A stretch of DNA of 64,000 nt, from positions 3,720,001-3,784,000 of the forward strand of contig NZ_CP053985.1 in NCBI RefSeq assembly GCF_013267355.1, in the 5' to 3' direction. Shown here in pieces: positions 16,466-46,900 of the stretch (position 1 is its first letter; the number at the start of each line of letters is the position of its first letter). A model generated the notes under the pieces. The model saw nothing but the letters and a program-made list of their open reading frames with translations, did no database searches and was not told the DNA's origin. Source of the stretch: Achromobacter pestifer (GTDB taxonomy: Bacteria > Pseudomonadota > Gammaproteobacteria > Burkholderiales > Burkholderiaceae_B). A program made the translations under genes and the position numbers.

Positions 16466-17557
16466 ATGGCTCTGCAATGCGGCATCGTCGGCCTGCCCAA
16501 CGTAGGCAAATCGACACTCTTCAACGCTCTGACCCGCGCCGGCATCGCCGCCGAGAACTATCCGTTCTGCACCATCGAACCCAACGTCGGTGTGGTCGAA
16601 GTGCCGGATCCGCGCCTGCAGAAACTGGCTGAAATCGTCAAGCCCGAACGCATCCTGTCCGCCACCGTCGAATTCGTCGACATCGCGGGCCTGGTCGCCG
16701 GCGCGAGCAAGGGCGAAGGCCTGGGCAACCAGTTCCTCTCGCACATCCGCGAAACCGACGCCATCGTCAACGTGGTGCGCTGCTTTGAAGACCCCAACGT
16801 GATCCACGTGGCGGGAAAGATCGACCCCATCGCCGACATCGAAGTCATCGAAACCGAGCTGGCACTGGCCGACATGCAGACCGCCGAAAAGGCGCTGCAT
16901 CGTCACCAGAAGACCGCGCGCTCCGGCGACAAGGAATCGCAGCGCATCGTGGCCGTGCTGGAAAAATGCGTGGCCCAGCTGAACGAAGCCAAGCCCATCC
17001 GCGCGCTGGATCTCTCGGCCGAAGAGCAGGCCGATATCGCCCAGCTCTGCTTCATCACCGCCAAGCGCGCGATGTACGTGGGCAACGTGGCCGACGACGG
17101 CTTCACCAACAATCCGCTGCTGGACCGCCTGACCGAATTCGCCGCCGCGCGCAACGCGCCCGTGGTCGCCATCTGCGCCTCCATCGAATCCGAAATCGTC
17201 GACCTCGACGATGCCGACCGCCTGGCCTTCCTGTCGGACATGGGCATGGAAGAACCCGGCCTGAACCGCCTGATCCGCGCCGCCTTCAAGCTGCTGGGCC
17301 TGCAGACCTACTTCACCGCCGGCGTGAAGGAAGTACGCGCCTGGACCGTGCCGATCGGCGCCACCGCGCCGCAAGCCGCTGGCGTCATCCACACCGACTT
17401 CGAACGCGGCTTCATCCGCGCCCAGACCATCGCCTACGAAGACTTCATCACCTACAAGGGTGAGCAGGGCGCCAAGGAAGCGGGCAAGATGCGCGCCGAA
17501 GGCAAGGAATACATCGTGCAGGATGGGGACGTGATGAACTTCCTGTTCAACGTCTGA
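16466..17557 (+). CDS. ychF: Obg-like ATPase YchF
   Basis: A 363-residue P-loop protein of the Obg/OLA1 group that binds ribosomes and [20 protein letters not shown] is the P-loop, [12 protein letters not shown] the switch region and [20 protein letters not shown] the G3 region. The C-terminal TGS domain ends [23 protein letters not shown] precedes ATG 16466. The last 11 bases including the stop codon recur at 20035-20045 and mark the island attachment site. No terminator is seen directly after the gene. Confidence 0.97.
17547..17557. other. Candidate attL (end of ychF)
   Basis: TCAACGTCTGA, identical to 20035-20045. With one mismatch the match extends to TGNTCAACGTCTGA. The repeat preserves the ychF stop codon. 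Confidence 0.55.
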
Positions 17558-17698
17558 CGATTTTTGCTGGATCTCGGTGGCGCTCAGTAGCGTTTGGTGG
17601 ACGGATTGACTCGTTTTAAATCAATGAGTTGCGGAAACAATACGGTCTGCTGAGCGTTCCTAATGTTCATCGAGGTCCGGAAAATTCGGGGTAGCGTT

Positions 17699-17728
17699 GG
17701 GGGTACTCGTGTTCAACCGTGGGGGTAC
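17699..17728 (+). repeat. Paired GGGGGTAC motifs before the integrase (left)
   Basis: GGGGGTAC at 17699-17706 and 17721-17728, 22 bases apart, directly upstream of the integrase fragment. The same octamer occurs twice near the right end. They may be integrase arm-type sites or part of the integrase promoter control. Confidence 0.45.
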
Positions 17729-17752
17729 TTTTCCCCGCAGTGGAGTCCAACG

Positions 17753-18394
17753 ATGCCCGAAAACCTACTCACCGACCTCAAGGTCAGGTCGGCCAAATCG
17801 ACTGATCGAGATTGGAAACTATCAGACGGCGGGGGCCTGTTCCTGCTGGTCAAGCCCGCCGGCGGAAAGCTCTGGCGGTGGAAGTACCGCCTGCAAGGCA
17901 AGGAGAACCTCTTTGCCATTGGCAGCTTTCCCCAGGTAAGTCTTGCGGAGGCTCGCGCTGCCCGCGAGAAAGCGCGTGCCTTGGTCAAGCAAGGTATCCA
18001 CCCTGCGCATGAGCGGCAGCAGGTCAAGCAGCGCAACCTGGAAGTGCTGGAGGAACGCAAGCGTGCTCGTGAAAGCTCGTCTGCCAAGGTAGCGAAAGCG
18101 TACCTGGCGGAGATCAAACCGGTCTTCGGGCTCAGTTCCTACCGTACGAAAGAATCCCGCATCAGGAAGTACCTGTCGCCGAAGTTCGACGGGATGCCGA
18201 TGAGTGACATTGGCGTTAAACAGATTCGCCCACTGCTGGAAGAGTGCAAGGCCCACGGTGCGTGGGCAGCCATTCATGTCAAAGGCGATCTGGCGGCGAT
18301 CTTTGAGTTCGCGGTGGTGCGGGGGCTGGTCGAGGCCAATCCGATCCCCAGCCTGCGTGGGCTGCTGGGCATACCTGGGGTGGTTCCGCCTTGA
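17753..18394 (+). pseudogene. Truncated tyrosine integrase (P4/DUF4102 type)
   Basis: A 213-residue frame that starts like a P4-type integrase. The arm-binding DUF4102 domain spans about residues 1-90 (LTDLKVRSAK, DGGGLFLLVKPAGGKLWRWK, FAIGSFPQVSLAEARAAR) and a core-binding helical region about 100-200. It stops where the catalytic domain should begin. The Arg-His-Arg-Tyr residues are all missing, so it cannot recombine DNA. Full-length relatives are around 400 residues. ATG 17753 matches the family start; an in-frame upstream start adds 30 atypical residues. It lies between the candidate attL and the rest of the island. Confidence 0.8.
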
Positions 18395-18549
18395 CGGGTC
18401 TGAGCTTACAGGAACCTGCGCTGTTGGGGTTGCCGATGTACGAAGCCCATTGGTCTTGGCAACTGCCCGGTCAGTGTAGGTCGGGCTTCATCATGTCTGC
18501 CGCACACAATGGGATCTGGTGTGCGCCCGCATTGTTGCTGGCGTGTGCG

Positions 18550-18580
18550 GGGCCGTCACTGCGGCGTGCAGTGACGGCCC
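18550..18580. terminator. 13-bp perfect hairpin between integrase fragment and STY4528 gene
   Basis: GGGCCGTCACTGC and GCAGTGACGGCCC enclose GGCGT. It sits between the 3' ends of two convergent genes and may act as a bidirectional terminator. The rest of 18395-18598 shows no gene. Confidence 0.5.
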
Positions 18581-18598
18581 GTTTCGCGGCAGCATTTA

Positions 18599-19756
18599 TT
18601 ACGCAGGATGCGGTTGCCATCCCCTGGTCTGCATTGCCTGCGCTGCGATGTCCCCTGCATTCGTCGAGGTGTTCATGATCTTGCGGATGTTGGCGATGTG
18701 CGCCAGGGCGGTTTCACGTGATGCCGGTTGCGCAGTCGGTTTTGGGCGGTCTGCGGTGCGCGGCGGAGCTGCCGGTCGATTCTCGGCAGGCCGTGGGGTG
18801 GTAGACGTCTCCTTGCGACCTGCCCACAAGCGGAACTCGCCCGCAACGACGCGCTTCACCAAGACGAAGAAGTAGGCCACGACATTGCGCACGGTGCCGC
18901 TCTGGCTGCGAGCCTGCAACTCGTCGAGCACTTCCCGGCGATGCTGCGGCGACAGCCGCCGCAAGGCGGCCTGCACGTCGTTTTGCTGATGTGCCTGGGC
19001 ATTGCTCAGGCAAGGCGGCAAGCTCACCGACTGCGATGCCGGATCGCCGTCGCCTTCGCGCGCGCGGTACGTACGTTCTTTTTTATACATATACGTCTTA
19101 TACGTACTGCCCTGCTCAGCCGTCATGTGGCGAGCGTGTTCGGTCTGTTGCGGAACAGGCGTGCTGCCAGCGGAATCGCCAGACAATGGCAGCGGGTCGG
19201 CTGCCTCGCTCGCCTGCGACGGCGGCATAGGGGGCAAATCATCGTCATCGTGGCGCTGATCGTGGGTCGCAATGGAGGCGGCTTCAGGTGCCTGCGCCAG
19301 CACTGCCTGAATGTGGACGGCCACCCGATCTACCTGGTTGTTTTCATGGCCGATGGAGGCTTGCAAAAGCGCGGGTAGACTGGCATCGAGCGTGCGGGCC
19401 TGCTGGAAGTCCAGGGCACTTTCGTGAACCTGATACAGCTCGCTGAGCACATGGCCGGTCAGAGGATCGCGGTGCTGACCCACCAGACTGATCCACCCCG
19501 TCAGCCGAAGCACGACGAGAGCGCGCCGGGCCGTCTCGTATCCGGCCCGCTGCCCCAGCGGTGTAGAGGTGAGATAGCGGCGCAACTGCCCCAGGTTCGC
19601 CAGTGGGCTGATGCCTTCCGCAGAGCGCAGCATGCGCAGAACCTGCCAACCATTGCGCTCCAGCGGCGTGAGGCGGGCATCGAGCATGAGCGAGGCCGGC
19701 GTAGTGAACAGGGCATCTTGCCCCAGCGGATTGTGGCGGGTGTGACGGTTTGCCAT
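18599..19756 (-). CDS. STY4528-family island replication-type protein
   Basis: A 385-residue protein whose N-terminus resembles the STY4528 family of SPI-7/pKLC102-like integrative elements, often labelled pathogenicity island replication protein. Residues about 1-120 look like a winged-helix DNA-binding region (LTPLERNGWQVLRMLRSAEG, GYETARRALVVLRLTGWISLVG). The middle is low-complexity and Pro/Gln-rich. A conserved-looking block RRLSPQHRREVLDELQARS precedes a proline-rich tail. ATG 19756 has GGAGAG before it; the upstream 50 in-frame residues look non-coding. The frame is intact, but no partner genes of such islands remain. Function is inferred from family name only. Confidence 0.7.
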   Translation of the reverse strand: MANRHTRHNPLGQDALFTTPASLMLDARLTPLERNGWQVLRMLRSAEGISPLANLGQLRRYLTSTPLGQRAGYETARRALVVLRLTGWISLVGQHRDPLTGHVLSELYQVHESALDFQQARTLDASLPALLQASIGHENNQVDRVAVHIQAVLAQAPEAASIATHDQRHDDDDLPPMPPSQASEAADPLPLSGDSAGSTPVPQQTEHARHMTAEQGSTYKTYMYKKERTYRAREGDGDPASQSVSLPPCLSNAQAHQQNDVQAALRRLSPQHRREVLDELQARSQSGTVRNVVAYFFVLVKRVVAGEFRLWAGRKETSTTPRPAENRPAAPPRTADRPKPTAQPASRETALAHIANIRKIMNTSTNAGDIAAQAMQTRGWQPHPA

Positions 19757-19921
19757 GAGAGCTCTCCGAGGTATGGGCAACAGCGGCCCGTTCCCCTGCA
19801 TCTCATCGCGTACCGTTCCATGCGTCAGCCAACAATGCGGTCTGCGCCATACCCGTTTTATCCGGCAGGCGCAGCGCTGGCACCGGCATCCAGACTGATC
19901 TATCATCCCGATACCCCTTAT

Positions 19922-19941
19922 GGGGGTACAACTGGGGGTAC
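19922..19941. repeat. Paired GGGGGTAC motifs (right)
   Basis: GGGGGTAC at 19922-19929 and 19934-19941, 12 bases apart, upstream of the STY4528-type gene and near the right boundary. The same octamer pair precedes the integrase fragment. Apart from these and the attR candidate, 19757-20108 shows no gene. Confidence 0.45.
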
Positions 19942-20034
19942 TTCCAGCGATTCCCGCAAAGGCAGTGGCTTGATTTCCCCGCGAAACCTAGCATTCACGG
20001 CCCTTTGCAGACCGATCAACGTTTAAACGTGTGA

Positions 20035-20045
20035 TCAACGTCTGA
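20035..20045. other. Candidate attR
   Basis: TCAACGTCTGA, matching the end of ychF. A second related GATCAACGT lies 21 bases upstream, and CGTCTGACCGATT follows at 20048, resembling the bases after ychF. The exact crossover point is therefore uncertain by about 10-20 bases. Confidence 0.55.
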
Positions 20046-20108
20046 TCCGTCTGACCGATTTCACGGCGTTTCGTGAAACTCGGTGAAATTGTGGAAGTAC
20101 CTGAAAAG

Positions 20109-20130
20109 CCGCGCAAATGCGCGGTTTTTT
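20109..20130 (+). terminator. Rho-independent terminator, probably the displaced ychF terminator
   Basis: CCGCGC, loop AAAT, GCGCGG, then six T. The A-run before the stem can pair with the T-run, so it may work in both directions. It lies 64 bases beyond the candidate attR. Confidence 0.85.
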
Positions 20131-20190
20131 GGTTTCAGCCGTTGGCAGCCAGTCGCTCGCCGCCTGCCGCCTTGGAAAATAGGGGGGCGC

Positions 20191-20298
20191 ATGGTTCTGA
20201 ACAGTACCGACGGCGAACCCAACACCGTCATCGCCCAGCGCTTGAGGTTGACCAAGGTCTCCGCGGAAAAGTGCGTGGTTCCGCGACTAGACACCTAG
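20191..20298 (+). pseudogene. IS630-type transposase N-terminal fragment
   Basis: A 35-residue fragment beginning MVLNSTDGEPNTVIAQRLRL, recalling the N-terminal helix-turn-helix of IS630-family transposases. The frame then degenerates and stops. No DDE catalytic part and no terminal inverted repeats are visible, so this is a decayed scrap. It shows that the zone just right of the island has been used by other mobile DNA. Confidence 0.55.
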
Positions 20299-20365
20299 CG
20301 ATGCCCGCCGTAGCATGCATTGAATCCAACGAACACGTACGGACCCACCCCGTGAGGTCTTTGAG

Positions 20366-21124
20366 ATGGATACCCAAGGCACTACCCGATCATGGCTCGA
20401 CCGCATCGTTGCGGGCGTGGGTGTCTTGGGGACGCTTGTAACCATCGTACTGACGATCTGGAATGCGCAGACCAAGCAACTGATTGACCAGCGCGAGGCG
20501 GATTTGAAGATTCAGAGTGCGGCGCTGGATGCCGAGCTTCGGCGACGCAGCACCAGCGTTGAAGAGTCCAAGGAACGCGTGGAGCGTTACAAGTGGGTCT
20601 ACAGTCTTGTTCCCGAGCTGAGCGTTCAGGATGGGGCCAAGCGCAATGCTGCGCTCGCCATGGTCCGGCTTGCACTTTCCAAAGAAGAGGCGGACGGCTT
20701 GCTCGCAGGGCTGCAGCAGTCACCCAACGAGGAGGTCCGCAAAGCCGCCGCGCAAAGTGTCGCAACCATCGCCAAGATTGAAAATGCGGAAATTGTTCGC
20801 CTTGTTTCTCAGATGAATGCGCCTGGCGTGGACGAACGCCGCCGCGCCACGGGCAGGTTGCAGAGAGACTTCAATGATTCAGCGGACGCCATTGTCGAGG
20901 CCTTGAAGTTGCTGAATAGCGATCAGATCGACAAGCTCTCTCCGAGCGGCTTGATCAATGTGCTTTATTTTCTTTCTCGCACGGACCCCCGTGCCTGGAC
21001 TCAAGACGCGCGCTCTTTGGCTGGGCAGGTCCTGCCGCTTGTCCGCGCGCGCAATGCCGGCCCTCAGACGCAAGCAGAGTTGTCCAGAGTAGAGGAAACG
21101 CTCAAGGCTGCTGCACGGCAGTAG
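20366..21124 (+). CDS. Membrane-anchored coiled-coil/helical-repeat protein of unknown function
   Basis: A 252-residue protein I do not recognise. Residues about 14-33 form one transmembrane helix (VAGVGVLGTLVTIVLTIWNA). A charged coiled-coil-like segment spans 35-75 (LIDQREADLKIQSAALDAEL). The rest is helical, with a HEAT-like stretch (NEEVRKAAAQSVATIAKIEN) around 115-150. No catalytic motif is visible. GAGGTCTTTGAG lies before ATG 20366. It is upstream of, and in the same direction as, the triple-hydrolase gene with a 324-base gap, in a region scarred by mobile DNA. It could be a partner or protective protein, which is inference from position. Confidence 0.6.
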   Translation: MDTQGTTRSWLDRIVAGVGVLGTLVTIVLTIWNAQTKQLIDQREADLKIQSAALDAELRRRSTSVEESKERVERYKWVYSLVPELSVQDGAKRNAALAMVRLALSKEEADGLLAGLQQSPNEEVRKAAAQSVATIAKIENAEIVRLVSQMNAPGVDERRRATGRLQRDFNDSADAIVEALKLLNSDQIDKLSPSGLINVLYFLSRTDPRAWTQDARSLAGQVLPLVRARNAGPQTQAELSRVEETLKAAARQ

Positions 21125-21448
21125 CCGATTCGAGCTTCCAAGCAAAATCCGACGATTGGACTGTAGCCGGCAACGCTGGCGATGGGCGGTGCGCGCTGCC
21201 TCCACCCGTTGCTGGACCGCACCCAGTGCCCGTGGTTTGACGGTCATCCTCTGGGGCAGAACCTCGCTCCGTCCAGGCGGCTTTCCTGCTCCAGGGTCAG
21301 GGGCCCAATATCCTGGGGCCCAATAACCTATGACAAGCTCTGACTGTGCGCCATACCCAATTGAAGGGATATGCAATGTGAAAGCGCATGACTAGCATCG
21401 GACGCAAAGATCCACTGACGATAGATGCTGGCCGAGGAAGAGACGAAC
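21125..21448. other. 324-bp gap before the triple-hydrolase gene
   Basis: No gene can be supported. A direct repeat GGGGCCCAATA occurs at 21300-21310 and 21315-21325. Bases 21330-21440 are A/T-richer and likely contain the promoter of the next gene. The part around 21180-21290 may be old mobile-element debris, but I cannot name it. Confidence 0.4.
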
Positions 21449-24256
21449 ATGCTGACTGATGTCCAACTCGCGCAGATCATGCGCCACGCATCCCGGCTTC
21501 GCCGTGCGCAGTGCCTGGAGCCTCTCAACGATGCCATGGCGGCTCACCAGATCGACGCCAACCTGCGGCGGGCGGCCGCCTTTGTGGCGCAGTTGGGCCA
21601 TGAGTCGGGGGAATTGCAGTTCCTGGAGGAGCTCTGGGGGCCGACGGCAGCGCAGCGGCGTTATGAACCTCCCAGCGATCTGGCGCGCAGACTTGGCAAC
21701 GCGCATCCGGGCGACGGTCGCCGCTTCAAAGGCCGTGGACCGATCCAGATCACCGGTCGTGCCAACTATGCGCGCTATGGGGAACTGCTGGGCCTGGATC
21801 TGGTCGGTCAGCCTGAACAAGCAGCCGACCCCGTGGTGGGTTTCCGGATTGCGGGGCTGTTTTGGGAACGTAATGGGCTCAATGCGCTGGCCGATGCAGG
21901 CCAGTTTGACGAGATCACGCGCCGCATCAACGGAGGCCAGAATGGTGCCGATGACCGGCGGCGCCTCTATGCCCTGGCACTTGACGTCCTGCGCGGCAGC
22001 CTGCCCGACATGGCTGCTGGTCCGGTACAAGCCACTCGGCGCGGGGGAAAGGCAGGCGCGCGGCGCGCCGCGCCCGCGATGGCGGCGGAGGCGTTGACAC
22101 GCGGCTGGGAGTTCATCGCGGAGGCCGCGCCCGATGATGAGCCGACCGATCAGAAAGCAAGCGGCAAACGCCGCCGCGGCCAGGCGAACGCCGCGACCAA
22201 AAAGGAGGCGGCAGGCGCAGGTCCTGCGCGGCGGCTCGATGCTCGGCCGGATACCCTGGACTTCCGCGATCAGATGTATACCCCCACGCTGATCGAAGTG
22301 CCCTTGCACGTACCGCTGGGTGACTATCTTGAGTGCAACGTGCCTATCCTCGATCAAGGTGCCGAAGGGGCATGTACCGGCTATGGCCTGGCCACCGTGG
22401 CTCACTACCTGCTGCTGCGCCGGCGCGTGGTACCCGATGCAACGCCGGTAAGTCCACGCATGATGTACGAGCTGGCCCGTCGCTATGACGAATGGCCGGG
22501 CGAGGACTATTCCGGCTCCAGCGCACGTGGAGCCATGAAAGGATGGCACAAGCATGGCGTTTGCTCCGAATCGCTCTACCCCAGCGGCGTGGTCAAAGTG
22601 GGTAAGAAGGCCGTCAAGTCTGCCTCCAAGGGTTCCCCTGCCGAGGGCGGCCTGAACGACGAGCGCGTGGTCGACGCGCTGCGTCGTCCGCTGGGGGCAT
22701 ATTTCCGGGTCAACCACAAGGATCTGGTGGCCATGCATTCGGCGATCGCCGAGGTGGGCGTCTTGTACGCGACCTGCACCGTCCATGAAGGATGGTCACA
22801 TGTGGGTGCGGATGGGGAGATCCAGCAGTCGTCCGCAATCCTGGGCGGACATGCTTTCGCCATCGTCGCCTACGACGAGCGCGGTTTCTGGATTCAGAAT
22901 TCCTGGGGACCCGCCTGGGGCCGTAGCGGCTTCGGTCTGCTGAGCTACGACGACTGGCTGGAGAACGGCACCGACGTGTGGGTGGCCCGCCTGGGCGCGC
23001 CAGTCACGCTGCGGCGGCCGGAATCTACCGCGACGGTGCATGCCACCACGGCAGCTCAGTCCGTCAGCTATTCCTACGCCGACTTGCGGCCACACATCAT
23101 CAGCGTGGGCAACAATGGCGCGCTCAAAGCCGGTGGCGATTACGGCAGCACGACTGACGAACTCCAGCGTGTTTTCGACGAGGATATCCCGCGCGTTACC
23201 GGTGGCTGGGCGGTGCCGCGGATCCTTCTTTATGCCCACGGCGGTTTGGTGGGTGAACAGGCCGCCGTGCAGCGGCTGGCCGAGTATCGTCCGTTGCTAT
23301 TGGATGGCGAGGTTTATCCATTGGCCTTTATCTGGCGTTCGGACTACTGGACCACCATCACCAACATCCTGCGCGATGCCGTCAATCGCCGAAAGCCCGA
23401 GGGGGGGCTGGATGCCGCCAAGGACTTCATGCTGGACCGCCTGGACGATGCGCTGGAGCCGCTGGCGCGCACGCTCACCGGAAAATCCGCTTGGAGCGAA
23501 ATGAAGCAGAACGCCCTGGCTGCCAGCGACAATGGTGGTGCGGCCGAACAAGTCGCCGACCTGCTGGTGGCTTTGCGTAAACGCCTGCCCGCGCTGGAAG
23601 TGCACATGGTCGGTCACAGCGCCGGTTCCATCCTGCTGGCGCCGTTGGTCAGCCTGCTGGGCGCGCGGAAGATCCCCGTAAAGAGTTGCACCTTGTGGGC
23701 GCCCGCCTGCCAGGTAGAGCTGTTCAAAGAGCATTACGCGTCCGCGCTGGAGAAGAAAAAGGTCGAAAAGATGGCCATCTTTGCCCTCACGGATAAGGCC
23801 GAGCGAGATGACAACTGCGGCCGCATCTACAACAAGTCGCTGCTTTACCTGGTTTCCAACGCCTTCGAAGACCCGGCGCGCATTCCACTGTTTCGCGATG
23901 GCTGCCCCATCCTGGGCATGGAGCGCTTCATTGACCGGACGCTGATGCAGCAATTGGGCGTGGATCTGGTGCTGGCGCCCAACACCGAGCCGGATGACTC
24001 TCTTTCCGCCTCAGGCGCCACCCATCATGGCGACTTCGACGACGACAAACGCACCGTGATGGCCACGTTCCGCCGCATTGCGCAGGCAAGTGCCAAGAAG
24101 GCAGCTTCAAAGGCGGCGGCTGCGGCGCGGGTAAAGACAAAACGCATCAAGGATGGCGAGCAGCCGACGGTGACGGTGGCGCCCACCTTCAATCGTTCGG
24201 AATCGTCCATGCGCGACCAACGTCAACTCATTGATCTCCGTACAAAGGCACTCTAG
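21449..24256 (+). CDS. Three-domain hydrolase: GH19 muramidase/chitinase + papain-like protease + alpha/beta-hydrolase
   Basis: A 935-residue protein. Residues about 1-185 are a GH19 domain (AQLGHESGELQFLEE with likely catalytic E52; FKGRGPIQITGRANYARYG), the fold of phage endolysins and chitinases. A basic Ala/Lys linker (190-265) leads to a C1 papain-like domain, about 270-520, with Q303 and C309 (DQGAEGACTGYG), H468 (LGGHAFAIVAYD) and N484 (IQNSWGPAWG), so the full Gln-Cys-His-Asn set is present. Residues about 540-870 are an alpha/beta-hydrolase with HGG (597-599), nucleophile S724 (VGHSAGS) and a likely His at 859/860. A basic tail follows. No signal peptide or transmembrane segment is seen. 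ATG 21449 has GAGGAAG nine bases upstream and is preferred over 21425. Role unknown; antagonism, lysis or defence are options. Confidence 0.8.
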   Translation: MLTDVQLAQIMRHASRLRRAQCLEPLNDAMAAHQIDANLRRAAAFVAQLGHESGELQFLEELWGPTAAQRRYEPPSDLARRLGNAHPGDGRRFKGRGPIQITGRANYARYGELLGLDLVGQPEQAADPVVGFRIAGLFWERNGLNALADAGQFDEITRRINGGQNGADDRRRLYALALDVLRGSLPDMAAGPVQATRRGGKAGARRAAPAMAAEALTRGWEFIAEAAPDDEPTDQKASGKRRRGQANAATKKEAAGAGPARRLDARPDTLDFRDQMYTPTLIEVPLHVPLGDYLECNVPILDQGAEGACTGYGLATVAHYLLLRRRVVPDATPVSPRMMYELARRYDEWPGEDYSGSSARGAMKGWHKHGVCSESLYPSGVVKVGKKAVKSASKGSPAEGGLNDERVVDALRRPLGAYFRVNHKDLVAMHSAIAEVGVLYATCTVHEGWSHVGADGEIQQSSAILGGHAFAIVAYDERGFWIQNSWGPAWGRSGFGLLSYDDWLENGTDVWVARLGAPVTLRRPESTATVHATTAAQSVSYSYADLRPHIISVGNNGALKAGGDYGSTTDELQRVFDEDIPRVTGGWAVPRILLYAHGGLVGEQAAVQRLAEYRPLLLDGEVYPLAFIWRSDYWTTITNILRDAVNRRKPEGGLDAAKDFMLDRLDDALEPLARTLTGKSAWSEMKQNALAASDNGGAAEQVADLLVALRKRLPALEVHMVGHSAGSILLAPLVSLLGARKIPVKSCTLWAPACQVELFKEHYASALEKKKVEKMAIFALTDKAERDDNCGRIYNKSLLYLVSNAFEDPARIPLFRDGCPILGMERFIDRTLMQQLGVDLVLAPNTEPDDSLSASGATHHGDFDDDKRTVMATFRRIAQASAKKAASKAAAAARVKTKRIKDGEQPTVTVAPTFNRSESSMRDQRQLIDLRTKAL

Positions 24257-24383
24257 CTAGGGGGCTTGCCAGCTGATCCGTGGGCAAAGTCGATGTCATT
24301 TCTCGACGATCGAATCTGCGGTGGCGGTCCACTGAAATGTTCGGCACGGGCCAGCGGATCTCTGTCAGCCCACGATGGCCGTC

Positions 24384-24770
24384 TCATCCCTGCGCCTGAG
24401 CTTCCTGGCCGCATGCACGCAAGTTTTCAAGCGGCACCCAGCCCGTCTCGCCATCCACGAGCCTGACCGCCCACACCCATCCATTCAATTCGCGTTCGCC
24501 GCGCAGCATTTCGCCTTCCGCGACATCCAGTTCCTTGTTGGTGAAATCCTCCAGCATCGTGGCGCTGCCGTCGGCGTGGCGATCCAGGAATTGCGCCGGC
24601 ACGAAGCCGGCTTCCTGGTTCGCTGGCGTGCAGAGATACCAGTCGGGCCAGCCCTCGGGGCCATCGTACCGCTCGCCGACGGTGACGCGATCTCCCTTGC
24701 GTACCAGCATGGGCTCGGGAAACTCGCTGGCGTGGGCCTGGACGACGAGGTAGCGGCGATCGGGATTCAT
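24384..24770 (-). CDS. SH3-like domain protein
   Basis: A 128-residue soluble protein made of two SH3-like beta-barrels. The first spans about 1-62 (MLVRKGDRVTVGERYDGPEG, WYLCTPANQEAGFVPAQFL) and the second about 66-122 (LDVAEGEMLRGERELNGWVW, GETGWVPLENL). The GWVP-type ends are characteristic of SH3 repeats. No export signal. It converges with the triple-hydrolase gene, with 127 bases between the stops. It may bind proline-rich or other protein ligands; function unknown. Confidence 0.7.
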   Translation of the reverse strand: MNPDRRYLVVQAHASEFPEPMLVRKGDRVTVGERYDGPEGWPDWYLCTPANQEAGFVPAQFLDRHADGSATMLEDFTNKELDVAEGEMLRGERELNGWVWAVRLVDGETGWVPLENLRACGQEAQAQG

Positions 24771-27542: not shown

Positions 27543-27671
27543 TATATCGCGCGTCGCGAGGCGGCTGAGTCGCCGTGTTCGGTTGCCGCTGATGCCAACG
27601 AACATCTGTCGGGGCGATGCTTGTGTTTGCGGATGGAAGGGGGAGGAGTGCCTGGAATATACGACACGGAC

Positions 27672-28346
27672 ATGCTCCGCCTGGAGGGAATCACACATGC
27701 CTATGCTGCGGGCGCTTCCAGGCAAGCAATATTGCACGACGTGTCGCTTTCCATCCCCGCGGGCCAAAGCTGCGCCATCGTCGGTGCATCGGGATCCGGC
27801 AAGAGCACACTGCTCAACCTCATGGGGCTATTGGATGCGCCCACCGCCGGGCGTGTGTTGCTCGCCGGTGTGGATATGACGCGCGCCGGCTCCGGCGAGT
27901 GCGCGCGGGTGCGCAATCGGAGTATTGGATTCGTTTTTCAGAGCTTCCATCTACTGCCGCGCCTCGATGCGCTGGACAATGTCGCGTTGCCCTTGCTGTA
28001 TCGCGGCCTGTCGCGGCCGGCAGCGAGACAGGCTGCCCTGGCGCAACTGGCGAAGGTGGGATTGGAAGAACGCACCTGGTACCTCCCCGCGGATCTGTCG
28101 GGCGGCCAGCGTCAGCGCGTGGCCATTGCCCGGGCCTTGGTGGGCGAGCCGGCCCTGTTGCTGGCCGATGAACCTACCGGCAATCTCGATGGCCAGACCG
28201 CACAGGACACTATTGATCTGCTGCTTTCCTTGAATCGGGAGCAAGGCGCCACGCTGATCCTGGTGACTCATGACCATGGAATTGCCAATCGCATGGAACG
28301 CCGCATCGAAGTGTGCGATGGCCGAATCCGGGAGGCACATGGTTAG
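27672..28346 (+). CDS. MacB-type ABC transporter ATP-binding protein
   Basis: A 224-residue nucleotide-binding protein of the MacB/LolD class. Walker A GASGSGKSTLLN, Q-loop FVFQSFHLLPRLDALDN, signature [15 protein letters not shown], Walker [13 protein letters not shown] and the switch His LVTHD are complete. MLRLEGITHAY at ATG 27672 is the canonical start, but in-frame starts at 27621, 27633 and GTG 27648 are possible; a GGGGGAGGA lies at 27639-27647. Separate ATPase and permease genes overlap (28339-28346), as in YknYZ-like systems rather than the fused MacB. Confidence 0.88.
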   Translation: MLRLEGITHAYAAGASRQAILHDVSLSIPAGQSCAIVGASGSGKSTLLNLMGLLDAPTAGRVLLAGVDMTRAGSGECARVRNRSIGFVFQSFHLLPRLDALDNVALPLLYRGLSRPAARQAALAQLAKVGLEERTWYLPADLSGGQRQRVAIARALVGEPALLLADEPTGNLDGQTAQDTIDLLLSLNREQGATLILVTHDHGIANRMERRIEVCDGRIREAHG

Positions 28347-29589
28347 GGCGCGGGCGCCACATGTTGGGCGTCATGTCCTGCAATCCGGTTATGGCCCGTC
28401 CTGGTCGCAACTGCTGCGAGAATCGATCGAGAACCTCCGCTTGCAGGGGCGGCGGGCCATCTTGTCCATGTTGGGGATCGCGGTGGGCTGCATGGCCGTC
28501 GTGGCGCTGTTGAACATCGGGCACAACGCCCAGCTTGAAGCCATGCGCGTCTTCCAAGGCATGGGCACTGATCTATTGGTGGCCAGCGTGAAGAATCGCA
28601 TCGAGGGTCGCAGTGCCGCGGTGCCCGCCGTCGCTCACCTGGATGTCGGCTCGTTGCGCGCAGCGCTGCCCGATATTGCGGCGGCGGCCGTGTTGATTCC
28701 AACGGGCGCGGAAGCACGGTTGCGGGGACGTTCCCTGAGCGTCACGGTATTGGGCAGTAATACCGAGCTGCGGAACGTTCTGGATCTGCGGCTGGCGCGA
28801 GGCCGATTCCTGAGCGAGTTCGACGCTGGAGCCACCCATGCGGTTTTGGGGGCGAATGTCGCGGCTGAGTGGGAACGCGCAGGCGTTGCCGTTTCATTGG
28901 GTGACCAGATGCGGCTTGGCGGCTACTTGTTTGAAGTGGTCGGCATTCTATGGCCGAACGGACAGAATCCATTGCTACCCGTTTCCCCGGACGATGCGGT
29001 TCTTTTGCCCGTCGAAGGGATGCGGCGTGTCATGCCGCTTCCGCAAATTTCCAGCATCCTGGCTCGTAACGCCGATAGCGGTACGCTCGGGCATACCTCA
29101 CCCCAGCTACAGGCCTGGCTGACGGAAAGGTTGCCCGGATTCGAGATCGATGTGCAGATCCCCCAGCAATTGCTGGACGGCATGGCGCAGCAGTCACGCC
29201 TGTTTTCATGGTTCCTGACGGGTCTGGGGGGCATCTCCCTGCTGGTGGGCGGGATAGGCGTGATGAATGTCATGGTGATGAGCGTCGCGGAGCGGCGCCG
29301 GGAAATCGGCGTACGCATGGCGCTGGGCGCGCGTCCCATGGATATTGCGCGCCTCTTTCTGCTGGAGGCAATCCTGCTGTCGGCCGCTGGTTCGCTGGTT
29401 GGCGCGGCATGCGGCTTCGCGGCGGCCAGGCTCTTCGTGCATCTCTCCGGCTGGTCGTCGTTTTCAGCATCGGTGGCGGCGTTGCCATTGGGTGTCGGCA
29501 GCGCCATTGCGATTGGCTTGTTCTTTGGATTGTCACCGGCGTTGGCGGCGGCGCGCCTGGCGCCTGTAGAGGCGCTGCGCGATGTGTAG
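28339..29589 (+). CDS. MacB-type ABC transporter permease
   Basis: A 416-residue permease. The first membrane helix is near residue 35-55 (AILSMLGIAVGCMAVVALL). A large periplasmic MacB-type domain follows to about 290, then three C-terminal helices of the FtsX domain (GISLLVGGIGVMNVMVMSV, GVRMALGARPMDIARLFLLE). Such transporters do not move solutes across the inner membrane. They drive export from the periplasm through an adaptor and TolC. GGGAGG precedes ATG 28339, which overlaps the ATPase stop by 8 bases. Confidence 0.9.
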   Translation: MVRARAPHVGRHVLQSGYGPSWSQLLRESIENLRLQGRRAILSMLGIAVGCMAVVALLNIGHNAQLEAMRVFQGMGTDLLVASVKNRIEGRSAAVPAVAHLDVGSLRAALPDIAAAAVLIPTGAEARLRGRSLSVTVLGSNTELRNVLDLRLARGRFLSEFDAGATHAVLGANVAAEWERAGVAVSLGDQMRLGGYLFEVVGILWPNGQNPLLPVSPDDAVLLPVEGMRRVMPLPQISSILARNADSGTLGHTSPQLQAWLTERLPGFEIDVQIPQQLLDGMAQQSRLFSWFLTGLGGISLLVGGIGVMNVMVMSVAERRREIGVRMALGARPMDIARLFLLEAILLSAAGSLVGAACGFAAARLFVHLSGWSSFSASVAALPLGVGSAIAIGLFFGLSPALAAARLAPVEALRDV

Positions 29590-31069
29590 GCTGCACGCCA
29601 TTGTTGCTGCGCTGCTTGCCGCAGCACTCTTCATCACTTCTGAAAGAGCCGCGGCGCGGACGGCACCGATGCAGGCAGGTCGGCAAGGCCAGGGGGCACC
29701 TGCCGCTACCGGGAAGTCGTTGAATGCCTCAACCATCGATCTGACATTGAGCGACGCAATCTATCTGGGGTTGCGGGAAAACCGTGCCATTCGCAGCGCC
29801 TATCTGGATCGCGTGGCTCAAAAGTTCGACCTGCGTGTGGCCGAGGATCGTTTTACGCCAAAGCTGACGCTCCGCGGCAGCTACCTTTCTCTGCGGAATC
29901 AGGCGGATCCCTACCGACAGGGGACCCTGGCCCCCACCGCGAGTCTGCAGACGCCTTATGGCAGTCGTGTCAGCCTGGGCTGGAACTACAGCCACATGCG
30001 GGCCAGCGAGGGCGGCCTGTCGCGCAATGACGGCGCCAACATCGCTGTGATCCAGCCTTTGTTGCGCGGCGCCGGGAAGGACATCGCGACGGCCCCCGTG
30101 CGCCTCGCGCGCCTGAATGAACTGATAAACCGGCTCAACCTTAAGCTCATTGTCGCGCAGACCATCACGCAGGTCGTTGTTTCCTACCGAGCACTGCTGC
30201 AAGCGCAGGGGCAGTTGGCGATTGCGCAGGAATCGCTGGAGCGCGCGCGTCAGTTGGTTGACGTCAATCGCGCCATGATCGCTGCCGGGCGCATGGCCGA
30301 ATTTGAAATTGTGCAAACGGAAGCCGAGGTGGCCACGCAGGAACTGGCCTATGAAGACACGCGCAATCAGGTGGAGAGCGCTCGCCTGGCCCTGCTGCAG
30401 TTGCTGACCCTGAACCTGAACACGCCGATTGTCGCGACCGAGGCCTTGCAGGCGCAGCGCCTGGACGTCAATGCTGTCGAAGCGCTACGGCAGGCCGAAG
30501 CTTCTCAACCTGCTTATCTGACACAGATCATTGCCAGCGAGCAAGCTACCGTCAATCTTGCCGTCGCGCGCAACGATCGCCTCTGGAATGTATCGCTCGT
30601 GGGTGGCGCCAGTCAGGCGCGCGAGCGCAGCGCCTTGAGCGGCGCCTCGCGCAACTGGGAAAACTATGTTGGGCTTCAGGTGGAAATTCCCATTGGCGAC
30701 TTGAGCACGCGCCAGACCGAAGTACAGGCCGAGGTCAACGTGCGCAGCCAGGAACTTCAGTTGGCGGAGGCTCGCCAACAATTGGAGCGTGATGTGGTCA
30801 ACGCCGTGCGCGATATCGGAACGCGGTGGCGCCAATACGAAATTTCCCAGCGTGCACGCGATCTTTCTCGCCGAAAACTGGAAATAGAACGTGAAAAGCT
30901 CACCGTGGGCCGCTCCAGCAACTTTCAGGTCCTGAGCTTCGAGAATGATCTGCGCAATGCGGAAAACGCGAGGCTCAACGCGCTTGTCAGCTATCTCAAT
31001 GCGCAGGCCGAACTGGACCAGAAGCTGGGGACCACGCTGCAAAGCTGGGACATCGCGCTCGATGACTAG
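29582..31069 (+). CDS. TolC-family outer-membrane efflux protein
   Basis: A 495-residue outer-membrane channel with an N-terminal signal peptide (MCRLHAIVAALLAAALFITS). Two homologous halves of long alpha-helices are visible, for example LTLSDAIYLGLRENRAIRSA and RARQLVDVNRAMIAAGRMAE, with GRSSNFQVLSFENDL near the end as in TolC proteins. It overlaps the permease gene by 8 bases and the adaptor gene by 8 bases, so the exporter parts are translated as one unit. It provides the exit duct for the MacAB-like pump. Confidence 0.9.
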   Translation: MCRLHAIVAALLAAALFITSERAAARTAPMQAGRQGQGAPAATGKSLNASTIDLTLSDAIYLGLRENRAIRSAYLDRVAQKFDLRVAEDRFTPKLTLRGSYLSLRNQADPYRQGTLAPTASLQTPYGSRVSLGWNYSHMRASEGGLSRNDGANIAVIQPLLRGAGKDIATAPVRLARLNELINRLNLKLIVAQTITQVVVSYRALLQAQGQLAIAQESLERARQLVDVNRAMIAAGRMAEFEIVQTEAEVATQELAYEDTRNQVESARLALLQLLTLNLNTPIVATEALQAQRLDVNAVEALRQAEASQPAYLTQIIASEQATVNLAVARNDRLWNVSLVGGASQARERSALSGASRNWENYVGLQVEIPIGDLSTRQTEVQAEVNVRSQELQLAEARQQLERDVVNAVRDIGTRWRQYEISQRARDLSRRKLEIEREKLTVGRSSNFQVLSFENDLRNAENARLNALVSYLNAQAELDQKLGTTLQSWDIALDD

Positions 31070-32366
31070 CTTCCGTCTTGCGAGCCAAGCTCTCTTCTTC
31101 ATCGGCCGCAGGCCACTCTTGCTGATGTTGCTGTCGCTGGCTGGCGGCATGCTGCTTTGGCGGCCATGGAAGACAGATGCCGCGGAGACAGAGCCGGCAA
31201 CGAGCGAGTGGGTGGCCGTGGAGCCCCGGCTTCTCGAACAGCGGCTTGGCTTGGTCGGACGTATTCAGCCGAGCCGTCAGGAGACGCTGGGGGCTCCATT
31301 CGAAGGTGTCATCCGCGAAGTGCTGGCGCGCGAAGGACAGTCCGTTGATGCGGGGCAAGTTCTGATACGACTTGACCCTGGGAAGATCGATATTCAGCTG
31401 CGTCAGGCACAGGCTGAGCTGCTCAAGGCACAGCGGGAAGCCAATCAGCTGCGCAACTGGGACAGCAGTTCCGACGTTTTTCGCGCTCGACGAGCCGTGC
31501 AGACCGCTCGCACTACCCTGGAAAATACAGAGACGAACCTGCGCGATACCCGGATGCTCTTTGCGCGCGGCATCGTCGCCCGCATGGAAGTCGACACCAT
31601 GGCGCAACTGGTGCGCACGCAGCAGCAGGATCTGCTCGCCGCGCAGGAGGAGCTGCACATCGTTGAGACTCGCGGGCAGGGCGTGGACCGGGAGATCGTC
31701 GAGATGGAGCTGGTCAATGCTCAGGCTCGCCATCAGGCGTTGCTTGCACAACGCGATCGTCAGGCGGTCACGGCTCCATTTGCGGGGTTCGTCGCGCGCC
31801 CCTCGGTTCCCGACGGAGGGAAGGCGCTGAGCGTGCAGCCTGGCGTGCTGGTCAGCCAGGGTACGCCCTTGTTGAGCGTGACTGGGCGGGAACACATCCA
31901 GGTGCTCTCCAGGGTGGAGGAGATGGATCTGCACCGGTTGCGCGTAGGCATGCCGGTGCAGATCGCGGGCGACGGCTTTGCCGGGCAGGTGCTGGGCGGG
32001 CACATCGAGTCCATTGCGGTGCAAGGCAACGCAATGGACGTGCAAGGGGCTGCCGCATACTACGACGTAGTGGCATCGGTCGACGCCTCGCTCACCGATC
32101 TCAGCAAGCACGTCCGGTTAGGGATGAGCGCTCGCTTGACGGTCATTCTGTATCGCAATGAACAGGGCATCGCGGTGCCGCCCGACGCGTTGCGGATTGA
32201 TGCCGACGGAGCATCCTACGTCCTCTATCGCGCAACACTGGATGCCTTGCCGTCGAAGATCGTCGTGAAACCCGGCCAGGCGATAGCGCAGGGCGTGGAG
32301 GTGCAGGGATTGGATGTGGGATATGTGCAGACAGGTTATGGGCAGTCCAGGGCGCGGGCGCGGTGA
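31062..32366 (+). CDS. MacA/HlyD-type periplasmic adaptor protein
   Basis: A 434-residue membrane-fusion protein with an N-terminal membrane helix (PLLLMLLSLAGGMLL). The lipoyl-like halves are FEGVIREVLAREGQSVDAGQ and AVTAPFAGFVARPSVPDGGK, with a long coiled-coil hairpin between them (about residues 115-225) and beta-barrel domains after. It links the permease to the TolC channel. The ATG lies inside the end of the tolC-like gene. Last gene of the exporter operon; the marR gene converges 44 bases downstream. Confidence 0.9.
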   Translation: MTSFRLASQALFFIGRRPLLLMLLSLAGGMLLWRPWKTDAAETEPATSEWVAVEPRLLEQRLGLVGRIQPSRQETLGAPFEGVIREVLAREGQSVDAGQVLIRLDPGKIDIQLRQAQAELLKAQREANQLRNWDSSSDVFRARRAVQTARTTLENTETNLRDTRMLFARGIVARMEVDTMAQLVRTQQQDLLAAQEELHIVETRGQGVDREIVEMELVNAQARHQALLAQRDRQAVTAPFAGFVARPSVPDGGKALSVQPGVLVSQGTPLLSVTGREHIQVLSRVEEMDLHRLRVGMPVQIAGDGFAGQVLGGHIESIAVQGNAMDVQGAAAYYDVVASVDASLTDLSKHVRLGMSARLTVILYRNEQGIAVPPDALRIDADGASYVLYRATLDALPSKIVVKPGQAIAQGVEVQGLDVGYVQTGYGQSRARAR

Positions 32367-43725: not shown

Positions 43726-43996
43726 ATTTATTTCACATGGAGCATAGACGTGTTTGCGGCGCATCAACAACTGGCTGAGCGGGCTGATCGCCTGACGCTT
43801 GCTGGAGCATCCAAGGGCCGGTAGCCATATGGCCCGGAGCCGGCGGGGCCGCTGAAATTACCCAGTTTCAGTGATATGCAATGTTACGGATCGCTTTTCT
43901 AATTGTAATCGGCGGGTAACGCGACCCGCACGTTGCCATTTCCACTCGCGTCCGCTGGGCGCCAGTCTGCGCGGGCCAAGATTACAGAAGAGCCCC

Positions 43997-46900
43997 ATGA
44001 ACCGCACGTATCGCATAGTCTTCAACCGCAGCGCGGGATTGTGGCAGGTTGTAAGTGAGCATGCCCGCGGGCAAGGCAAGGGCGGTCGCCGTGAAAGCAG
44101 ATCCGCGCGCGCGCGCCTGCCGTTGATGGCGATATTGCTGGCGGCCCTGGGTACGGCCGGCGCAGTACAGGCAGGGCCGATGGTCACCCTCACCGGCGAT
44201 ACCACTTTCGGAGCTTATTCAGATCCATACCTCACGGTCGTCGGCCCGCTTCACGTGGGCATGACCGGTGTAGGAACATTGACCGTTGCCGATGGCGGCC
44301 AGGTGACGATACTGCCCGGCCACATGGTGATTCTGGCCGACTCGGCCTCGGCTCAGGGCACGATCAACATCGGCGCGGCTCCCGGCGCTGCGCCCGCGGG
44401 CGCCGGTGTCCTGGCGACGGGGCTACTCGAGTTCGGCGCGGGCGCGGGCACGCTGAACTTCAACACCAACGACCTCCACAACTTCGGCGCGGCGCTGGTC
44501 AGCCGCGGGTCGGGCACGCATAAACTCAATCACTATGCCGGCGAGACGCTGCTGCGCGGTGATAGTTCGGCCTTCGCGGGCGCGGTCAAGGTCATGGGCG
44601 GAAGGCTGACCATTCTCAACACACTGGGCGCGTCCGAAGGACGGCTCGATGCCGGAATTGCGGCGGGCGCCAGGGCCAGGGTCGACGTGGGCCGCGGCGG
44701 GGCCTGGAACATTGCGGGCAACTTGTTTGTCGGCGAAGTCGGCTCCGGCGAGCTCAGAATTCTTGACGGGGGCACGGTATCGAACCAGTTTGGCACGGTC
44801 AACGCCAAGATGGGTTCCGCCGCTCAAGTAACGGTTTTCGGTGCGAATTCCCGCTGGGTGAACAGCCATGCCCTGTTGATCGGCACGGACGGTGCGCGGG
44901 GGGCGATGACGGTCGAGCAGGGCGGCTACGTGAGCAGCAACGACGCCTATGTCGGCCGCATGCAGGACGGCCATGGGACCGTCTTGGTGACGGGGAGCGG
45001 ATCGGCCTGGGCCAGCGGCGGCAGACTCCTGGTGGGAGACATGTCAGCCCAGGGCTTATTGAGCATCGAGACGGGCGCTGTCGTCACGACTGTCGACAGC
45101 GTGGTGGGCAGCATGGGCGGCAGCGGCAGTGTGGTCGTCAGCGGAGCCGGCGCCTCCTGGAACAATACCGGTGCGCTCAATCTGGGCTTCGGCCAGGCTC
45201 TCCTCTTTGGCACCGGCAGCGTGACGATCGCGAATGCGGGCGCCGTCAATGTCGGTGCGAACGGAACAGGGGTGGTTGCCTTGGCCAAGGATGGCCTGTT
45301 CCCCGGGTTCGGCACGACCGGCACGATCAATATCGGCGCGCAGGCCAACCAGGCCGCCGTCGCGGCCGGTACGCTCAACGCCTCGGCGATCGAATTCGGC
45401 AAGGGCAATGCCACGCTCAATTTCAACCATGCCGATGCGGGCTATCGATTCCTGGCGCAGCTCAAAAGCACGGGCAATGGCACACACCAGCTGAACCAGA
45501 TCGCCGGCTCCACCATCATGGAGGGAGACAGCTCCGGCTTCAGGGGCGCGATGAAGGTGTCGGGCGGCAAGTTGACCGTGATGGGAAAACTGGGTGGATC
45601 CGCGGAGGTGACGGGCGGCGTGCTGCAGTATGGCGATGGCGCCACGGGCGCGGCCAACAGCCTGAGCGGCAACCTGAAAGTCTCCGGCGTCGGCAGCATG
45701 CTGGCGCTGCGAGGGGGCGCCACGCTCGGGGTCGCAGGCGACGTCGATCTGGCCGACGCCACCGTGTTGGACATCGCGGCCGGCGCGGGCAGTCCGTCAT
45801 TGCAGGCAAACAAGGTCAAGCTGGGCGACGGCGTGGTGTTCAAGCTGAGCGGCATTGCCGACAGGAGCCAGCTTGACAAGGTACTGATCCAGAGCACGAA
45901 CGGCATCGATGGTGATTTCAGCGGCGTGAGCGTGGGCGGTTTCACGGGCGCCGTCGATTACCTTACCGTCCACACGCGCAAATCCGCGGACGGCCTGCAG
46001 TACCGCGCCACCTACGATTTGAGCTGGACCGCCAACAACAATCTGGGCCATGGCACCTTCACGCTGGCCAACCCTGCGGACCGTTTCGACGTGGGCGTGG
46101 CGCTGTCGGACCAGGCCGCCAATGCCGCGGCCGGCTGGGATGGCAACACGCTGACGAAGGCAGGAGCGGGCACGCTGGTGCTGAGCGGCAACAACACCTA
46201 CAGCGGCGGCACGGTGATCGCCGGCGGCACGCTGCAGGTCGCAAACAATGCGAATCTGGGTTCCGGCACGCTGACCTTCAGCGGCGGGACATTGGCGGTC
46301 ACGCACTCTTTCGACACCTCGCGCGCCGTCGCGCTGGCGCAGCCTGGCAGGTTCGACGTGGCTGACGGCGCCGTGCTGGGCCTGACCGGCAGCGTGACGG
46401 GGAGCAGCGACCTGATCAAGAGCGGCGCGGGCACGCTGCGCCTGGACAAGGCGGGCAATGCCTACGGCAACACCTGGATCCAGTCGGGGACGCTGATCGG
46501 CAATGCCGCTTCGATCTCCGGCACCGTCAACAACGGCGGCAAGCTGGTGTTCGACCAGGCGATCAATGGCAACTTCTCGGGCAGCATCTTCGGGGCTGGC
46601 GCGCTCGTCAAGCAGGGCGCAGGTACGCTGGTGCTGTCCGGGGACCATGTTGCTTTCTCTGGCAAGACGACGGTGTCGGCGGGCACGCTGGCCGTGCAGG
46701 GCGTGTTGGGCGGCTCGGCGGAGGTCACGGGCGGCACCTTGCAGTATGGCAATGGCGTTGTCGGCGCGGCCAACCGCTTGAGTGGCGACCTGAAGGTGAG
46801 GGCTGCGGGTAGCACGCTGTCGGTGCAGGGCGCCGCCACCTTGTCGGTCGCGGGCGATGTCGGCCTGGCTGATGACACTGTGCTGGACGTCGACACCAGC

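Follow-up and report, generated by a model that had tools for sequence, protein, structure and literature searches.

A wall enzyme, a papain-like protease and an alpha/beta-hydrolase in one chain: a recurring three-domain protein on an Achromobacter pestifer island, with a possible role in self-lysis

Why would a bacterium join a peptidoglycan-cutting enzyme, a protease and an alpha/beta-hydrolase in a single polypeptide? The question is raised by a gene in a stretch of 64,000 nucleotides from Achromobacter pestifer (contig NZ_CP053985.1, positions 3,720,001 to 3,784,000 of the forward strand), which we call the window and whose coordinates are used below. A first-pass annotation, made from the letters alone, had seen three enzyme domains with visible active-site residues in one 935-residue frame. 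Translation, alignment and structure models bear this out, and the residues it named, E52 (in GHESG), Q303, C309, H468, N484 and S724 (in GHSAG), all stand where it placed them. We are highly confident of this three-domain anatomy and of the recurrence of the three activities, in combination, among relatives. The window gene is more than a chance arrangement, since the best 80 of its related loci are 51–73% identical to it in their best segment, active-site residues are conserved across the family and the structure models of the domains show known folds. All three active sites look complete. The gene and its parts are as follows.

21449..24256, + strand: whole gene, GH19 - C1 papain-like protease - alpha/beta-hydrolase, 935 residues (translation, Pfam, alignment, models)
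21435..21439, + strand: AGGAA, likely ribosome-binding site for the start at 21449 (sequence)
21449..22018, + strand: GH19 muramidase-type domain, residues 1-190; E52/E61 catalytic by alignment; H51, Q100, T102, N161 and R170 match the PaGH19Lys active site
22019..22234, + strand: linker, residues 191-262, Ala/Arg/Lys-rich, pLDDT mostly <60
22235..23002, + strand: papain-like C1 protease, xylellain-type, residues 263-518, with Q303, C309, H468 and N484
23078..24088, + strand: alpha/beta-hydrolase, residues 544-880, with the H597-G-G-L motif, S724, D782/D788 and H860 (conservation, models)
24179..24253, + strand: conserved basic C-terminal tail, residues 911-935, of the F.RS.SS[LM]R..R type (tails of relatives compared)

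The frame at 21449-24256(+) is free of stops and extends, still open, to an ATG at 21425. We prefer the start at 21449 because the AGGAA precedes it and because the initial MLT is common to the window protein and four relatives (L005, L011, L012 and L053). The absence of a signal peptide, claimed earlier for the window protein, is supported by a simple and crude hydropathy scan; with the threshold set at a Kyte-Doolittle mean of 2 across 12 residues, one of 104 N-termini of the family (L082) passes, and its start looks over-extended. The 104-row alignment behind this and the counts below contains the nearly identical pair L006/L007 and has a single gene under two names (L101/L115); it excludes L001, L112, L116, L117, L120, L121 and the window copy, which duplicate other rows.

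The N-terminal domain matches PF00182 (GH19) at residues 32-140 (4.5e-11, 43.4 bits against a cut-off of 25.5). E52, E61, Q100, T102, N161 and R170 align with E51, E60, Q127, T129, N188 and R197 of a Pseudomonas aeruginosa GH19 endolysin (9eoi), which we equate with PaGH19Lys by title and length and in which E51/E60 are described as the catalytic pair (PMC12329726). E61 is thus the second GH19 glutamate, absent from the earlier residue list. Of the 25 rows that have residues over the GH19 part, 24 show E52 and 24 show E61; the exception is probably L043, which by domain scan begins with something other than GH19. In structure alignments, the domain is 41–46% identical to 9eoi and 32% to the SPN1S endolysin (4ok7). 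Both endolysins resemble the window protein in the GH19 fold and the glutamate spacing (E51/E60 against E52/E61), whereas they are of phage or prophage origin and have no protease or hydrolase attached. The window domain is therefore best read from its sequence as an endolysin-type muramidase, predicted to cut MurNAc-GlcNAc bonds, and the "chitinase" part of its first label is unlikely because the closest solved structures are endolysins. The P. aeruginosa enzyme, encoded by a cryptic prophage, is described as a muramidase inactive on chitin, and its authors propose a role in native cell lysis (PMC12329726).

The second domain matches PF00112 (Peptidase_C1) at residues 356-498 barely above the cut-off (2.2e-4, 21.8 bits against 20.7), and the structure model recovers a papain fold. 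The closest solved structure for residues 261-517 is xylellain of Xylella fastidiosa (3ois), with which the catalytic residues align. Xylellain shares the papain fold and the Gln-Cys-His-Asn active site; unlike the window protein, its solved chain of 291 residues is a cysteine protease alone, without a wall or ester domain. Q303, C309, H468 and N484 are kept in 102 of the 104 aligned frames, and the two exceptions, by domain content, are L113 and L114, which have no papain domain.

The third domain has Ser-Asp-His in the canonical alpha/beta-hydrolase order (S724 in GHSAG, D782/D788, H860), invariant or near-invariant, and S724, D788, H860 and the HGGL motif are kept in all 104 frames. The late histidine had been left at 859 or 860; H860 is the conserved one, while H859 is kept in 42 of the 104 rows. 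The hydrolase triad looks complete by conservation and strand order, which is how it was judged, whereas the GH19 and papain residues align with those of solved enzymes. No named hydrolase family was found above its cut-off (DUF900 15.7 against 20.5, Lipase_3 12 against 22 and Abhydrolase_1 14 against 25.8 bits). The domain was modelled alone, since papain matches took up the whole list when the full-length model was compared with known folds. Its nearest solved folds, at weak scores, are generic esterases, thioesterases and the DDHD domain of Nir2 (9jyx), which we take to be phospholipase-type; these share with it the alpha/beta-hydrolase fold and the usual Ser-Asp-His order.

Is the combination peculiar to this genome? 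A pattern search over one genome per species gave 322 matches, of which 295 encode a relative, and we examined the best 80. These span Pseudomonadota, Bacteroidota, Planctomycetota, Acidobacteriota, Nitrospirota, Thermodesulfobacteriota, Cyanobacteriota and Chloroflexota. The full GH19-protease-hydrolase order occurs at 19 named-genome loci, mostly in Burkholderiales (Variovorax, Xenophilus, Ramlibacter, Cupriavidus, Rubrivivax), so a local fusion or an assembly error is rejected. Nor do all relatives encode the domains separately, an outcome the first-pass annotation had listed as fatal to its proposal.

A domain scan of 119 proteins, with GH19, Amidase_2 and PF11860 as the wall domains searched for and with L007 and the contig-cut L018 dropped beforehand, gave 91 proteins with the protease-hydrolase pair only, 23 with GH19 before the pair, one with Amidase_2 (L041, Duganella), one with a PF11860 muramidase (L128) and three of a different make, Amidase_2-hydrolase-caspase (L113, L114 and L145). 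Two further members, L149 and L156, carry GH19 before the pair, that of L156 being of a second type. In a tree of 116 protease-hydrolase cores, the wall enzymes of the papain series were joined on at least 4 branches; the tree is a quick one, with SH-aLRT support only and long-branch warnings (the long rows include L128, L144 and L131). Nineteen of the 20 GH19 proteins of the window type form one group with support 83, and the twentieth, L053, lies at an unresolved fork with two unfused rows. Well apart from these is the second GH19 group (L100, L101 and L115), whose GH19 is a distant one accompanied by a PG_binding_1 match below threshold; L041 falls among unfused Oxalobacteraceae and Gallionellaceae rows; and L128 is sister to the paralogues of the window's genus. 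The protease-hydrolase pair thus appears to be an unnamed, widespread core to which wall-cutting domains were probably added more than once, a pattern missed by the earlier reading. The same kind of trio was assembled several times from different parts, and therefore we suggest that the three activities serve one job, in all likelihood the dissolution of a bacterial cell, both envelope and contents, by a single polypeptide. Plasmid records annotate members of the family merely as "C1 family peptidase".

The window's own genome holds a second copy of the core (L112), 38% identical and without GH19, and an Amidase_2 gene (1.6e-10) lies 24 bp upstream of it. Such a gene lies 22–27 bp upstream of the unfused core at L112, L116 and L120, and at the Cupriavidus locus L015 a GH19 fusion has a separate amidase gene 72 bp upstream. 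By tblastn, the L112 amidase has a counterpart next to the core in 7 of the genus's 18 paralogue loci (L002, L084, L087, L092, L094, L098 and L099), with short remnants at L087 and L099 and a partial gene at L098; none was found at the other 11, where the reach of the search was mostly ~1.5 kb. Furthermore, directly downstream of the core at four of the five wide paralogue loci of the genus (L116, L117, L120 and L121, not L112) lies a PAS/GAF gene, which may act as its sensor or trigger. The PAS/GAF protein has ~1000 residues (e.g., L117:11067-14084). The amidase at L112:7034-8482 ends in ~250 residues without a Pfam, NCBIfam or clear PDB relative.

A parallel series exchanges the protease. 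Amidase_2-hydrolase-caspase proteins occur at L113, L114, L145, L146 and L147, and at L139 split over two frames, in the window's genus, in other genomes of its phylum and on a cyanobacterial plasmid (L145). They carry the same hydrolase domain as the window protein; Pfam finds Amidase_2 and Peptidase_C14 in L114, L145 and the two frames of L139, and neither in the window protein. This series is one further joining, outside the core tree. Bacterial proteins of the amidase-metacaspase kind were surveyed in 2012 by Asplund-Samuelsson et al., who took them to strengthen a role in cell death; one of the four Amidase_2-metacaspase proteins, from Chitinophaga pinensis, also has a GDSL lipase, and the authors called it a highly destructive weapon (PMC3501461). 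Each of the published proteins joins an amidase acting on peptidoglycan to a cysteine protease, comparable to the wall enzyme and protease of the window protein. The caspase series described here has the same two domains plus the window's hydrolase, whereas in the window protein GH19 and papain replace Amidase_2 and caspase, in another order. In the portions of the 2012 account available to us, neither this alpha/beta-hydrolase nor a papain series is mentioned. A 2023 survey, as far as its available text goes, excluded multidomain prokaryotic C1 proteins (PMC10380794). No description of the papain version of the trio was recognised in the open-licence literature searched, and the earlier statement that no described system has this domain order stands within that literature. 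The exchange of papain and caspase in the same setting bears on the role of the bacterial caspase relatives, a question that the 2012 survey raised.

Could the protein dissolve the envelope of the very cell that makes it? We favour this answer, with a probability of roughly 0.4: a single-chain, envelope-dissolving enzyme kept in the cytoplasm for altruistic or defensive self-lysis. The enzyme, held in its maker's cytoplasm, would start self-lysis upon cell damage or another trigger. The alpha/beta-hydrolase would attack membrane lipid from inside, standing in for a phage holin; the GH19 domain would then reach the peptidoglycan and cut its MurNAc-GlcNAc bonds; and the papain-like domain would degrade proteins, perhaps including its own linkers or an inhibitor. 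The catalytic activity, the lipid substrate, the cytoplasmic location, the self target, the trigger and the order of events are all what we infer. The maker's own cell is favoured as the target because no delivery or immunity context was found and because the cryptic-prophage GH19 endolysin is thought, by the authors who described it, to serve native lysis.

Several observations weigh against self-lysis. The strongest is the core-only majority: 91 of the 119 relatives have no fused wall enzyme, and a search of the called genes with wall-domain sequences found a separate one at 4 of 89 loci (L015, L112, L116 and L120), so the core must do something useful alone. The lipid substrate is a guess, because the nearest folds of the hydrolase are generic esterases and thioesterases and a weak DDHD match. 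The joining of wall enzymes fits an injected antibacterial effector equally well, and a missing signal peptide cannot separate a cytoplasmic enzyme from non-Sec cargo. Moreover, no trigger, sensor, holin or antitoxin-like partner common to the lineages was seen, the PAS/GAF gene being limited to the genus and absent at the window locus, and where a lineage does keep the same neighbour, a UvrD-type helicase for example, it looks unrelated to lysis.

A broader form of the self-lysis reading is more doubtful. The family would then be an unnamed class of cell-dissolving proteins across at least eight phyla, with a constant alpha/beta-hydrolase, a papain or caspase domain and, in a minority of the known members, a fused or adjoining peptidoglycan hydrolase from any of three families, acting as a holin-free executioner of programmed lysis in which papain and caspase are interchangeable. 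The need to destroy membrane, wall and protein at once would explain why the trio arose again and again. If this is true, bacteria in many phyla possess a lysis enzyme encoded by one gene and not annotated under that function at present. The repeated assembly from unrelated parts would also make the need for all three activities testable through single active sites.

Alternatively, could the target be another cell? The protein might be effector cargo delivered to other bacteria by type VI secretion, contractile injection, vesicles or sibling lysis, there attacking wall, protein and lipid. Envelope-directed enzymes without a signal peptide are usual among injected effectors. Its genome holds one type VI secretion system (T6SS) sheath gene and two phage-type sheath genes, and the gene is island cargo, as detailed below. 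Within the genus, 16 of 18 carriers have the T6SS sheath (PF05943), but so do 40 of all 43 genomes, so that the rate is not above background. For the fused form, the sheath is found in 14 of 25 carriers, drawn from several families and including draft and metagenome-built genomes, against 141 of 268 genomes in a background made up of the window's family alone; it is missing from the other 11. Among 26 genomes that hold at least the hydrolase (6 of the 18 genus carriers and 20 others), 6 have it, or 17 of 38 when all 18 genus carriers are included, and it is absent from 19 of the 20 carriers outside the genus. A phage-type sheath (PF04984) is present in 12 of the 26, namely the 6 genus genomes and 6 of the other 20. 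T6SS is thus common where the gene is common, yet no commoner than expected, and many carriers are without it; with no enrichment, a general tie to type VI secretion, one of the delivery routes that the first-pass annotation had raised, is not supported, and secretion by this system is rejected as a general rule.

Among the domains listed by Pfam for the family proteins scanned, none was of a delivery type such as PAAR, VgrG or Rhs. Outside the genus, the full-length relatives sit among varied genes, according to our own gene calls around unannotated loci. We scanned 67 of 168 adjacent genes, hand-picked, mostly on the same strand and of <900 residues, with near-duplicate loci dropped; the commonest Pfam families, Amidase_2 one of them, had 3 members at most, and no shared neighbour family of the immunity or delivery type was seen. 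Conservation within lineages was limited to such cases as the UvrD-type helicase (9 loci) and a VWA protein in Larkinella. Delivery to other cells is, in our judgement, less likely than self-lysis yet a serious alternative, and even with another cell as the target, the protein would be an effector type undescribed within the literature searched.

Slightly less likely again, but also a serious alternative, is a cytoplasmic housekeeping or stress role of the core, unrelated to killing, in which it would deal with damaged material or storage polymers and some lineages would have gained wall enzymes for envelope debris or prey, much like a lysosomal set of lysozyme, cathepsin and lipase. Such a role would suit a core that is found in eight phyla, mostly without a shared neighbourhood, and among others in anammox, nitrifying and methylotrophic lineages that are not evident killers; that stands without a fused wall enzyme in most of the scanned proteins; and that often bears a mere short Lys/Ala-rich N-terminal tail. 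On the other hand, the recognised N-terminal additions all cut peptidoglycan (28 of 28, in a search limited to these domains), which a storage role hardly explains; those of the longest proteins that were scanned with Pfam yielded no N-terminal enzyme of another kind; and the caspase series retains the same three activities.

That the protein is an endolysin of a phage, or what is left of the lysis function of a prophage or island, enlarged by extra domains is very improbable and largely refuted: endolysins of phages and prophages are the nearest relatives of its GH19 domain, and the remnant around the gene is that of a mobile element, but none of 1756 matching records in a phage collection covers over 80% of the protein (the 30 matches listed meet the GH19 part only), a pattern scan of IMG/VR found no close relative, and the full order stands among varied genes in several genera. 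A phage endolysin as the whole protein is accordingly rejected; phage lysis, suggested earlier as a setting, is not supported, and no full-length homologue proved to be a known phage endolysin, the finding that the first-pass annotation had said would overturn it.

The setting of the gene is that of an inserted island, with the following features upstream of it.

17663..18394, + strand: truncated tyrosine integrase, Arm-DNA-bind_3 and central domain only, island remnant (domain scan)
18599..19906, - strand: STY4528-family pathogenicity-island replication protein, island remnant (1.4e-68)
20366..21124, + strand: island gene directly upstream of the triple enzyme, with an N-terminal hydrophobic segment and sub-threshold HEAT repeats (domain scan)

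The interval between ychF and an SH3 gene (window 17557-24417) is 6.9 kb in the window genome and 155–260 bp in G004, G005, G041 and G042; it reaches ~21 kb in G001 and ~18 kb in G010 (intervals are given for these genomes among 43), and the stretch after ychF looks like an insertion hotspot. The triple-enzyme gene is island cargo, because the inserted stretch holds integrase and replication remnants and the site is empty in four close relatives. The earlier description of the gene as next to an island remnant was thus right about the island and understated the rest, since the gene sits inside the insertion. An inverted repeat at 18536-18594 beside the STY4528 gene has 27-nt arms, 78% complementary, and a 5-nt spacer, and is perhaps a terminator.

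Does either neighbour look like a partner? The HEAT-repeat gene had no tblastn match at the other loci searched (L002-L121), and the downstream SH3 gene is ordinary chromosome, standing beside ychF in four relatives; a toxin with an adjacent immunity gene therefore finds no support. A defence island was likewise rejected: among the PADLOC matches listed (25 of 66 families), no defence pattern was seen, and the matches are UvrD-type helicases and GlgB-like enzymes, which we judge to be housekeeping.

The basic tail is the end of many proteins of the main core clade, where it follows a variable linker. A loose F.RS.SSLR.RR-type pattern is found in 59 of 79 tails of that clade, against a mean of 12 in shuffled tails, and in 3 of 25 other rows. 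The idea of encapsulin-type targeting through this tail was dropped, as no shared shell gene was noticed beside the family, although no dedicated search was made.

Elsewhere in the window, genes for an ABC transporter, a MacB/FtsX permease, an outer-membrane efflux protein and an HlyD-type protein lie in a row downstream of the island (27621-32366), and a 2662-residue autotransporter with many beta-strand repeats is encoded at 43871-51859.

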